DNA of 64,000 nt from NCBI GenBank assembly GCA_040754075.1, contig JBFMDH010000011.1, forward strand, positions 62,001-126,000, given 5' to 3'. Shown here one piece after another: positions 42,000 to 45,356 of the stretch. Source of the stretch: Acidobacteriota bacterium. GTDB taxonomy: Bacteria; Acidobacteriota; Blastocatellia; UBA7656. The number at the start of each line of letters is the position of its first letter. The first letter of the stretch is position 1. Position numbers and translations under genes: made by a program. Below the pieces are notes generated by a model that was not told the DNA's origin, made no database searches, and saw only the letters and a program-made list of their open reading frames with translations.

Positions 42000-43067
42000 A
42001 TGTCGAGCAAGTTTGATGAATTGAGAAAGCGCGTCACCGATACCGCCCGCGATTTAGATAAAAAATTCGAGATTACCGATAAACTCAATCAAGGCGCAAA
42101 AGCCGCGACCGACGCATTGAAAAAAGGCGCGGACGTTGCCACTTCGGCAATTGACGCGGCGCGCGAAGAAGCGGCGCGCATCAACCGCGAGCATAAAGTC
42201 ACCGAAACTGTAAGTGACGCCGCCAAGCGAACCGCAAGCGCCGCAAGTGATGTCGCCAAAAGCGTGGTGAGCACGGCTGACGAAGTTGCCGAACAAAGCG
42301 GCGTAAAAAAAACGGCAACTGACGTAAAAGATAAAGTCGGCGAAGTCGTCGATGATGCCTCAAAAAAAGCCGGAGAGGTTTTTGACGAAGCAAAATCCAA
42401 GACCGCAGATTTATTCGGTGAAGCAAAAAAGTTTTATGATAACGCCTCGGGCGCAGCGCAGACCGGCGTGTCAGCAGCACGACTTCCGGCATCGGTGCTC
42501 GGCGCGGTGGCAAGCGCCAGGAAATGGATAACAGAAAATCCCGGCAAAACCGCTGTCGTATCGCTTGCCTTCATCGCGGGCACACGCGCCGGCGCGGCGT
42601 TCTCAACGCTTGATGTGGCGCTTCTGGGCGCAGGCGGCGCGGGTAACTGGTTTTTTCATTCGGCAATCGTGCCTTATGGACTCAGGAAACTTTCCGAAAA
42701 ATACGAAGCCTATTTGAAAAAACAGGAAACCTTAATCAATGAAGGCAAGCTCACCGAAGCGGAAACTTCACGAGTGAAATTTGAACGCGATTTGGCAAAA
42801 TATGTCGGCGCGCCATTGCTTGGCGCATTTTCCGTCGCCGCAGGCGCAGGACTTTTGTATGAAGCCTTCACCGGCGGCGTGGTCGGCGGCTTTCCGATTA
42901 ATTTAGTTTTAGGCGGCAACCCCATGCTTTCGAGCATCTGGTTATTCGCCAATGGCATGATCTGTTTTCATAACGGCTACAAATTTTTCATGATGGCGCT
43001 TGCCGACCAGGAAGATGTGGCTCGCGTCGTGCGCGACATCAAAGGCTTGCTCCCCGCGAATGTGTAA
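42000..43067 (+). CDS. LEA-like amphipathic-helix protein with membrane C-terminus
   Basis: A 355-residue protein. Residues 1-155 have the charge pattern of late-embryogenesis-abundant or apolipoprotein-like helices (ATDALKKGADVATSAIDAAR, VKKTATDVKDKVGEVVDDAS, GEVFDEAKSKTADLFGEAKK). The rest contains hydrophobic segments (TAVVSLAFIAGTRAGAAF, LGAFSVAAGAGLLYEAF, MLSSIWLFANGMICFHNG). A role in membrane protection during desiccation is plausible but unproven. Its final 38 bases (43030-43067) are duplicated after the mazEF pair at 43671-43708. GCAAGGAGC precedes the ATG. Confidence 0.75.
   Translation: MSSKFDELRKRVTDTARDLDKKFEITDKLNQGAKAATDALKKGADVATSAIDAAREEAARINREHKVTETVSDAAKRTASAASDVAKSVVSTADEVAEQSGVKKTATDVKDKVGEVVDDASKKAGEVFDEAKSKTADLFGEAKKFYDNASGAAQTGVSAARLPASVLGAVASARKWITENPGKTAVVSLAFIAGTRAGAAFSTLDVALLGAGGAGNWFFHSAIVPYGLRKLSEKYEAYLKKQETLINEGKLTEAETSRVKFERDLAKYVGAPLLGAFSVAAGAGLLYEAFTGGVVGGFPINLVLGGNPMLSSIWLFANGMICFHNGYKFFMMALADQEDVARVVRDIKGLLPANV
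43030..43067 (+). repeat. Left copy of a 38-bp direct repeat flanking mazEF
   Basis: Begins TGCGCGACATCAAAGGCTTG and ends with the LEA-like gene's stop. It matches 43671-43708 at 36 of 38 positions. Confidence 0.9.
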
Positions 43068-43084
43068 GTAAAATCAGAGGTGTT

Positions 43085-43327
43085 ATGCAAGTAAAATTAG
43101 AGAAATCAGGTGAAGACATCGCATTAAAAATTCCTAAATCAATCGCCGCGAAATCGAAAATCAAGCAAAGTTCAGTAGTCAACTTATCGGTTGTTGACGG
43201 CAACATCATTGTTAAACCGGTGACTGAAAAAGAGTACACTCTTGAAGAACTCTTAAAGGGCGTAACGCGAAAAAACATTCATAAAGAAACAGATTTTGGG
43301 AATCCCGCAGGCAAAGAGTTACTATGA
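43085..43327 (+). CDS. mazE: AbrB/MazE-family antitoxin
   Basis: An 80-residue swapped-hairpin protein with KLEKSGEDIALKIPKSIAAK and SSVVNLSVVDGNIIVKPVTE, then the acidic tail expected to bind the toxin (EYTLEELLKGVTRKNI). It should neutralise the MazF toxin and repress the operon. It begins 17 bases after the LEA-like gene's stop, and its own stop overlaps the MazF start. Confidence 0.9.
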   Translation: MQVKLEKSGEDIALKIPKSIAAKSKIKQSSVVNLSVVDGNIIVKPVTEKEYTLEELLKGVTRKNIHKETDFGNPAGKELL

Positions 43328-43662
43328 CGGCAACTTATGTTCCTGAGCGTGGCGATGTGGTATGGATTGAATTCAATCCACAAGCAGGCCACGAACAAGC
43401 AGGCAGACGTCCGGCGCTGATTCTTTCACCCTCAGTTTATAATGGCAAAGTTGGGTTAGGGATATTCTGCCCCATCACCAATCAGGTTAAAGGCTATCCA
43501 TTTGAAGTTGCCATTCCTAAAGGGCTTAAAATAAGTGGCGTAATTTTATCTGACCAGGCGAAAAGTTTAGACTGGAAGGCGCGAAAGATTACGTTTATTT
43601 GCAAACTGCCAATGGCAATCGTTGATGACGTGTTAAAAAAGTTGAACACGCTATTAAGATAA
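43324..43662 (+). CDS. mazF: MazF-family mRNA interferase toxin
   Basis: A 112-residue PemK/MazF endoribonuclease. Signature stretches are VPERGDVVWIEFNPQAGHEQ, AGRRPALILSPSVYNGKVGL, CPITNQVKGYPFEVAIP and GVILSDQAKSLDWKARK, retaining the catalytic Arg and Ser/Thr region. The ATG overlaps the MazE stop as ATGA, giving translational coupling. The pair is flanked by 38-bp direct repeats of the LEA-like gene's 3' end, which suggests it arrived as a unit. Confidence 0.93.
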   Translation: MTATYVPERGDVVWIEFNPQAGHEQAGRRPALILSPSVYNGKVGLGIFCPITNQVKGYPFEVAIPKGLKISGVILSDQAKSLDWKARKITFICKLPMAIVDDVLKKLNTLLR

Positions 43663-43670
43663 TTGCGATA

Positions 43671-43708
43671 TGCGCGACATCAAAGGCTTGCTCCCTGTGA
43701 ATGTGTAA
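43671..43708 (+). repeat. Right copy of a 38-bp direct repeat flanking mazEF
   Basis: 36 of 38 positions match 43030-43067; the two differences are C-to-T. It lies eight bases after the mazF stop and includes an out-of-context copy of the LEA-like gene's stop codon. Confidence 0.9.
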
Positions 43709-43752
43709 TGCAAAATACGACCATTAAATTTGCTTTATGCGGAGCAAGCAAA

Positions 43753-44232
43753 ATGGCTGAGGCAACCAAAGCGCGGAAAATAGGAAAAGCCGACCTTTTT
43801 ATATTCAGTGTTTTCCTACTACTGATCGCCGGTGAGGTTCTTGCCAGCTTCGGGCTAAATAAGTTCTTAGCTTTTTTTATTACCGGCTCATTTGGTCTGC
43901 TTATCGCTTATCCAGCGCTCAGAAAACCCAACGAGAAATTTTTAAAATACGCTGTTAAAACGGAATGTCGTATGAGCATTCTCCTGATTGTCGGTGTGCT
44001 TACAAAATATCTGCCTAATCCAACTTTTTCCGACAAGGTATCAAAATTTTTGGGAATAGGGTTACTCGCTGTTGCGGTGGCGCTCTGTCTGTTTTTGGGT
44101 ATTAAAGAGTTTTATAAACTGAACCCATTACAGCGGCAAAGTTTGGTAAAATGGACAATAAAATTTTATGCAAAGATGTGTGGGGTTGCTGCCGTAGGAT
44201 TTCTGATTCTGGCAATGATTTTGGGAATGTAA
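43753..44232 (+). CDS. Small four-helix membrane protein
   Basis: A 159-residue protein from the ATG at 43753, with GGAG upstream; longer frames would start within the duplicated repeat. It has about four membrane segments (IFSVFLLLIAGEVLASFG, FLAFFITGSFGLLIAYPAL, FLGIGLLAVAVALCLFLG, MCGVAAVGFLILAMILGM). No domain is recognised. It could belong with the cassette or with the ancestral neighbour. Confidence 0.6.
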   Translation: MAEATKARKIGKADLFIFSVFLLLIAGEVLASFGLNKFLAFFITGSFGLLIAYPALRKPNEKFLKYAVKTECRMSILLIVGVLTKYLPNPTFSDKVSKFLGIGLLAVAVALCLFLGIKEFYKLNPLQRQSLVKWTIKFYAKMCGVAAVGFLILAMILGM

Positions 44233-44321: not shown

Positions 44322-45356
44322 ATGAACTCCATCAATATCGCGCTTCTCGGTTTTGGCAATGTCGCTCAGGCATTTGTTCGCTACATTAATGCAAATCATC
44401 CTGAAATCAACATTCGCGCGGTTAGTGATTCAAGTGGCGCGTTGATGCTTGAATCCGGCGAACAACTCAACGCTTTACTCGCTCATAAAGCATCAGGGAA
44501 AACGCTTCGCGAATTTTCATCGGGCATGATTACTAATCATCCATCCGCGCTCATCAACACTCTCAAATCAGCGGGCGTTTCCTGCATCGTTGAATCATTG
44601 CCAACCAATATCACCGATGGACAACCGGCGTTTGATTTACTGAGGCAAGCTTTATCGCAGGGCATTTATGTCGTCACTGTTGATAAAGGCTCGCTGGTTC
44701 ATGGCTTCACTGCGCTTCAACAAATCGCCGCAAATACCAATGTGCAACTGGGGTTCACAGGCACAACCGGCGTGGCGATTCCTGATGAACTCGGCGGTCA
44801 ATCGGTATTGGAAATTCGCGGCGTCTTAAACGGCACCTCGAATTTCATCCTCTCAGCCATGCAGGAGCAGGGGCTTTCGTTTAACGAAGCTTTGAGCATC
44901 GCTCAACGCGATGGCATCGCCGAACCCGACCCGCGCCTCGACATTGAAGGCTGGGACACCGCCTGCAAAATTCTCATTCTCGCGAAAGCCTTGATGGATA
45001 ATAAAAACAACCGGGACGCCACACTCAATGACGTTGCGCGCATCGGCATCAGCGCGGAAACCGAAAAGCTTATCGAAGCGGCTCGCAAAACCAACCGACG
45101 GGTTCGCCTCGTCGGGCGGGCGCGCATCTGGCAAGGCCGGTTGCGCGTCAGTGTCGCGCCAAAACTTGTCCAACCGGATTCGCCCTTTTATGCAGTAAGC
45201 GGCACATCGAAACTCGCGGTGTTCAGAACCGCTGAACGCGGCGAAATTATTTCACAAGCGCGTTCCGGTCGCGACGCCATTTCGCAAATCATTGTCGAAG
45301 ATATTTTGCGCATAACAAGTCTGGAGTCTGGAGTCCGGCGTCTGGAGTCAGAATAA
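44322..45356 (+). CDS. hom: Homoserine dehydrogenase
   Basis: A 344-residue enzyme reducing aspartate semialdehyde to homoserine in threonine and methionine synthesis. The Rossmann start is ALLGFGNVAQAFVRYI; family motifs are VVTVDKGSLV, FTGTTGVAIP, IRGVLNGTSNFIL and DPRLDIEGWDTACKILILAK. There is no C-terminal ACT domain, so threonine feedback of the usual kind is not expected. The last twelve residues (SLESGVRRLESE) are encoded by a tandem repeat that reaches past the stop. Confidence 0.93.
   Translation: MNSINIALLGFGNVAQAFVRYINANHPEINIRAVSDSSGALMLESGEQLNALLAHKASGKTLREFSSGMITNHPSALINTLKSAGVSCIVESLPTNITDGQPAFDLLRQALSQGIYVVTVDKGSLVHGFTALQQIAANTNVQLGFTGTTGVAIPDELGGQSVLEIRGVLNGTSNFILSAMQEQGLSFNEALSIAQRDGIAEPDPRLDIEGWDTACKILILAKALMDNKNNRDATLNDVARIGISAETEKLIEAARKTNRRVRLVGRARIWQGRLRVSVAPKLVQPDSPFYAVSGTSKLAVFRTAERGEIISQARSGRDAISQIIVEDILRITSLESGVRRLESE
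45318..45351. repeat. GTCTGGA tandem repeat in the hom 3' end
   Basis: Four degenerate copies of AGTCTGGAGTC-type units run through the final codons of hom. No inverse arm lies nearby. Confidence 0.75.

Follow-up and report, generated by a model that had tools for sequence, protein, structure and literature searches.

The mazEF cassette and its flanking repeats

The locus lies in the window, that is, the whole 64-kb stretch of DNA analysed here, and comprises a small cassette held between two copies of the 3' end of the gene upstream of it. Its features are as follows.

42000..43067, + strand: upstream "LEA-like" gene, 355 aa, intact, the source of the duplicated 3' end and kept across the class
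43030..43067, + strand: repeat copy 1, the terminal 38 bp of the upstream gene, TAA included
43068..43670, + strand: cassette between the repeats, 603 bp, 41% GC versus 50% for the window
43085..43327, + strand: predicted mazE antitoxin gene, 80 aa, with profile matches
43324..43662, + strand: predicted mazF toxin gene of the PemK/MazF family, 112 aa, with profile matches
43671..43708, + strand: repeat copy 2, 36/38 identical to copy 1, with CCC>CCT (synonymous) and GCG>GTG (Ala>Val)
43708..44232, + strand: orphan ORF, 174 aa, no family, 40% GC, termed a membrane gene in the first-pass annotation
44322..45356, + strand: homoserine dehydrogenase gene, placed immediately after the upstream gene in sister genera (the empty-site order)

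The upstream gene was present in 95 of the 98 genomes searched; it matched no Pfam family, and "LEA-like" is used only as a description. The mazE and mazF ORFs overlap by 4 bp, with the antitoxin upstream. MazF matched PF02452 (2.1e-27) and the NCBIfam equivalog PRK09907.1 (129.5 bits, cut-off 120), while the MazE score against PF04014 (23.2 bits) fell slightly below the cut-off of 24.7, and its match to PRK09798.1 (3e-10) was far under that model's cut-off. By these profiles, the cassette is a predicted type II mazEF toxin-antitoxin (TA) module in which the MazF assignment is secure. The 603-bp insert holds mazEF alone and no integrase, as had been remarked at first reading. None of the other 97 genomes searched had the orphan ORF, which is outside the ancestral gene order.

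The direct repeat (43030-43067 and 43671-43708) has a spacing of 641. Copy 1 ends exactly on the TAA (43065-43067) of the 355-aa gene, and copy 2 ends as TAATG, its TAA overlapping the ATG of the next ORF (43708). Copy 1 is followed after 17 bp by the mazE start, and the mazF stop codon (43660-43662) by copy 2 after 8 bp. The first-pass description of the site, namely, a 38-bp repeat with two differences that brackets mazE-mazF and leaves the upstream gene intact, was therefore accurate. When pairs with at least 36/38 matches at spacings of 250 to 1500 were sought in the window and in three shuffles of it, this pair was unique in the window, where it was also the top-ranked repeat, and the shuffles gave none. 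Likewise, the 25-bp core of the repeat occurred twice in the whole 7.58-Mb genome, as the two copies themselves, and the reversed core, used as a control, did not occur in it. The cassette ends carry no inverted repeats, and the insert with its 38-bp repeat does not qualify as a transposon (IS or MITE). A separate imperfect 17-bp direct repeat with a 23-bp period (TGTAAGTAAAATCAGAG / TGCAAGTAAAATTAGAG) spans positions 43063-43102, from the stop region of the LEA-like gene to the mazE start.

We then compared the locus with those of relatives. In five genomes of the same family, the LEA-like gene runs directly into the homoserine dehydrogenase gene; the locus has a single repeat copy there, and mazEF, the orphan gene, and the second copy are all absent from it. 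In a sister genus (G001, L003:2600-2760), a long palindromic, possibly MITE-like stretch stands right after the stop codon of the LEA-like gene and is followed by a DinB-like gene. Since the spot is empty in the five relatives and is occupied by the palindrome and the DinB-like gene in the sister genus, it appears to receive inserts, mazEF among them. Judged by gene order, mazEF is an acquired insert. The first-pass annotation had looked to relatives for an empty site in which one repeat copy is directly followed by the membrane gene. The five relatives supplied the first half of this, the LEA-like gene without mazEF; the order of LEA-like gene, one copy, and membrane gene was not found in the relatives searched, because the membrane gene occurs in only one of the 98 genomes. 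A donor order in which mazEF follows the LEA-like gene was found at none of 80 MazF loci.

Gene-end repeats around other TA modules

The same genome (G000) carries further MazF and VapC (PIN) modules between 40- to 124-bp repeats of the 5' or 3' ends of genes, the targets being pdhB (twice), an SDR gene, hemW, a dipeptidase gene, a peptidase gene, and a ydjC-like gene. A flanking-repeat scan of MazF loci returned two further MazF loci of this genome among its cases, and mismatched upstream/downstream pairs, run as a control, gave none at that score. In total, three of the four MazF loci of the genome were bracketed. Its PIN loci were bracketed in 4 of 27 cases, by repeats of 40 to 124 bp from the 5' end of the SDR gene and the 3' ends of the dipeptidase, peptidase, and ydjC-like genes; the other 23 had no gene-end bracket. 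At the pdhB-like gene (L053; G000:C1:273-276 kb), the initial ~80 bp of the gene occur three times, with a TA module between each copy and the next: one module is of the MazF/PemK type, and the other consists of UPF0175 and a putative PIN toxin. We read this arrangement as stacked acquisitions at one gene. A remnant resembling an antitoxin gene is also present at this locus.

The pattern extends beyond this genome, to sister genera and to Anaerolineales. Among PIN loci of relatives, 8 of 30 had flanking repeats, of which four were gene-end repeats (L326, L329, L334, and L342) and four were more complex. An Anaerolineales genome has a MazF of the same family flanked on either side by a copy of the terminal 29 bp of metA; as at the window locus, the stop codon is overlapped by the following gene as TAATG. 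Two further loci may be old cases, L063 (82%, SIMPL-like gene) and L068, and were left out of the count. We regard chance or an assembly artefact as a negligible explanation: nothing favours it beyond the reliance on a single genome assembly, such repeats are not expected by chance, 38 bp is shorter than a typical read, and the signature recurs in independent genomes.

Repeat length across loci ranged from 29 to 132 bp, and each locus had a different gene end and a different repeat. These features bear on whether the cassettes are micro-islands of an integrase, now lost or acting in trans, whose attL and attR are the repeats in the gene 3' end. Integrase sites typically show a gene-end repeat that restores the gene; against this, the gene differs from locus to locus, 5' ends are used as well, the repeats vary between 29 and 132 bp, and the cassettes are of 0.6 to 1 kb and hold TA genes only. 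We consider this origin very improbable and rejected it, as target, length, and gene end all vary between loci. Of the two routes proposed at first reading, site-specific insertion thus loses its support, given different gene ends, repeats of 29 to 132 bp, use of both 5' and 3' ends, and no integrase, and duplication gains it, as the pattern recurs at other TA loci; this wider pattern merits a systematic survey.

As a control, we examined 282 size-matched ORFs within 1.7 Mb of the genome. Repeats flanked eight of them: three lie in the CRISPR array of contig C1, one on C4 is presumably CRISPR as well, given its many repeats, one is a REP-associated transposase, and three are TA toxins. After the CRISPR-type, transposase, and TA toxin matches were set aside, none of 274 ordinary ORFs was flanked. 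Compared with these controls, the 7 bracketed loci among 31 TA loci gave a Fisher P value of 6e-8, or 3e-5 with the CRISPR and transposase matches kept as controls, in a scan that covered ~2 Mb of the 7.58 Mb in pieces partly picked for their TA loci. That ordinary genes go without the bracket and TA modules have it provides a lead on how these modules enter chromosomes. Three classical TA insertions of Escherichia coli (relA-mazEF-mazG, dinB-yafNO-yafP, and folA-ccdAB-apaH) showed no gene-end repeat; the signature is therefore not universal, or it is lost over time.

Boundaries of the repeats and their likely origin

Among 13 cases found via repeat searching, a count by eye gave 11 in which a start or stop codon lay no more than 6 nt from one edge of the repeat, and the opposite edge fell at an arbitrary point inside the gene. 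In three of the six 3'-end cases, the two copies had different stop codons and near-identical bodies (TGA/TAG at ydjC, TGA/TAG at the dipeptidase gene, and CAT TAG / CAC TGA at L342), and the two 5' copies at L334 read ATG GTG TTC and ATG AAT TTC. Elsewhere in the repeats, the ratio of synonymous to non-synonymous substitutions was 9.3 to 11.7, against an expectation of 22% synonymous, and this excess may weakly hint at two alleles with a homogenised core. If local DNA had simply been copied, one would expect neither edges at coding ends nor exchanged stop codons. Because the edges lie at start and stop codons and the stop codons differ, site-specific insertion or simple duplication alone seems insufficient, and the comparison of copies suggests that two gene-end alleles with a homogenised core fit better than a plain copy.

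These boundaries also bear on a strict duplication of a long target, in which no donor gene end takes part: foreign TA DNA would be joined where the target has a staggered break or a pair of nicks, the filling-in of which would duplicate the target, and the survivors would be those that kept the gene intact. The variable length of 29 to 132 bp, the lack of inverted repeats and of a transposase, the new target each time, and the precedent in restriction-modification (RM) systems all speak for such a process. However, its repeats should overrun the start or stop codon by random lengths, but they stop there, and neither copies with different stop codons nor a genome in which we found no Ku, and so no Ku-type end joining, is what it would lead one to expect. 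Overall, we rate it as the leading alternative to the reading preferred below, possible but on the unlikely side. Its version with staggered-break fill-in and Ku-type end joining was rejected, for want of Ku and because the boundaries misfit.

Two loci are informative on where the copies came from. At the dipeptidase locus, the distal fragment shares its TAG stop codon with the gene in G001 and has the conserved neighbour GH57 after it, while the functional gene beside the insert ends in TGA; this arrangement suggests that the final bases of the functional gene came with the TA module. At the ydjC locus, G001 has a repeat-free arrangement in which a homologous TA module (its PIN 76% identical) lies downstream of the same gene, an order resembling the donor that homology-anchored acquisition would need. 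In G000, a remnant of the gene between ydjC and the TA module can still be seen, and what follows the repeat resembles what follows the toxin in G001. The TA module here, being shared with G001, is older than the near-perfect repeat, which may be a later event or may have been kept young by conversion. Since the TA module predates the repeat in this case, repeat identity does not date an insertion.

The same ydjC observations, the homologous TA module without a repeat in G001 and the likeness between post-repeat and post-toxin sequence, could instead mean that the repeats are a later templated patch or a partial gene duplication (template switching) beside a resident TA module and not a footprint of arrival. 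A pgpA 5' fragment that stands next to a TA module and lies one gene away from its source agrees with this; its foreign-looking N-terminus, followed by 60/60 bp of identity to the resident pgpA, counts among the evidence for two alleles. Such patching leaves the occurrence at TA modules only and the coding-terminus edges unexplained, and sister genera have no TA module at most of the other sites, so we hold it to be improbable, behind strict target duplication. In the pgpA region itself (G000:C6:145297-147503), the order is RimO / TA / pgpA 5' fragment / Z / pgpA, compared with RimO / Z / pgpA in G001.

The reading that we prefer, with a probability of about one-half, is a homology-anchored acquisition that duplicates the gene end and is followed by gene conversion, with addiction acting against the reverse crossover. 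Under it, mazEF would have been horizontally acquired beside the upstream gene, as one instance of a recurrent type of acquisition associated with TA modules. Taking as observed the repeats, their recurrence and TA association, the coding-end boundaries, and the empty sites of sister genera, we infer recombination, conversion, and addiction in the following order. DNA carrying a TA module next to an allele of a gene end would pair and recombine with the resident gene end, through either the single crossover of a circle or a homology anchor paired with an illegitimate joint immediately beyond the TA module. The resident end would then persist as a fragment beyond the module, and the gene would stay whole. 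Subsequently, the two copies would exchange sequence by gene conversion, so that the selected coding part stays alike while the non-coding flanks and the last bases drift. Finally, any cell in which the copies crossed over would lose the TA module and be poisoned by the toxin, so the bracket would persist. The differing stop codons could also have arisen through independent joining and selection.

Relation to known insertions and to other repeats

The closest known relative of the pattern is, by analogy, the RM "insertion with long target duplication," which was reportedly described by Nobusato et al. 2000 (Gene 259:99) and Furuta et al. 2010. RM systems insert with long, variable target duplications on the order of 100 bp (PMC3874152; PMC1643837). 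As in that class, the insert at the window locus is absent from relatives and has a long variable repeat on both sides, although its cargo is mazEF and not an RM system. More broadly, the two patterns share an addiction-type gene pair, long variable repeats of host sequence, no need for a transposase, and recurrence within a genome. In a comparison made via reviews and citations, they differ in that the cargo here is a MazEF- or VapBC-type TA module and that the repeats consist of gene ends, have their limits at start or stop codons, and may differ in stop codon. The hosts differ as well, being Acidobacteriota relatives and an Anaerolineales genome.

Type II TA islets of E. coli (PMC7167474) likewise consist of a small TA module alone between otherwise adjacent genes, but the three loci checked lack the gene-end repeat. 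Integrative elements with an attB in the 3' end of tRNA or protein genes share a gene-end repeat that restores the gene; here, in contrast, there are no integrase, many targets, 5' ends as well, and sub-kilobase cargo. The deletion-coupled insertions of Haloquadratum (PMC3119063) replace host DNA at identical positions, with no gene-end duplication. A 2020 review describes the mechanism of TA integration as unelucidated (PMC7167474). We found no earlier report of gene-end repeats at TA modules in the open papers searched, which does not prove that none exists.

A more general proposal, which we put forward as doubtful, is that type II TA modules would act as integrase-free cassettes that carry a piece of a neighbour's gene end and recombine into the same gene end of a new host, where the reverse crossover would kill. 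If true, it would be one of the ways in which TA modules move in many bacteria. A footprint that marks TA modules, with coding-end edges and allele-like differences, turns the question of their entry into one for sequence and laboratory tests and links these modules to an older, little-followed observation on RM systems.

The 2-Mb scan also returned repeats of other kinds. Those at C1 242-249 kb, at the pilins of C26, and at C2 160 kb were judged to be paralogues or in-protein repeats and not acquisitions, and the REP/RAYT and CRISPR repeats were set aside. A 39/43 direct repeat surrounds a 229-aa ORF with no TA module seen (G000:C2:313019-313760), and a large CRISPR array with 37-bp repeats occupies G000:C1:304115-308224. 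At G000:C4:75244-76044, a REP-associated tyrosine transposase (RAYT-like) ORF stands between repeats identical at 79 of 79 positions.
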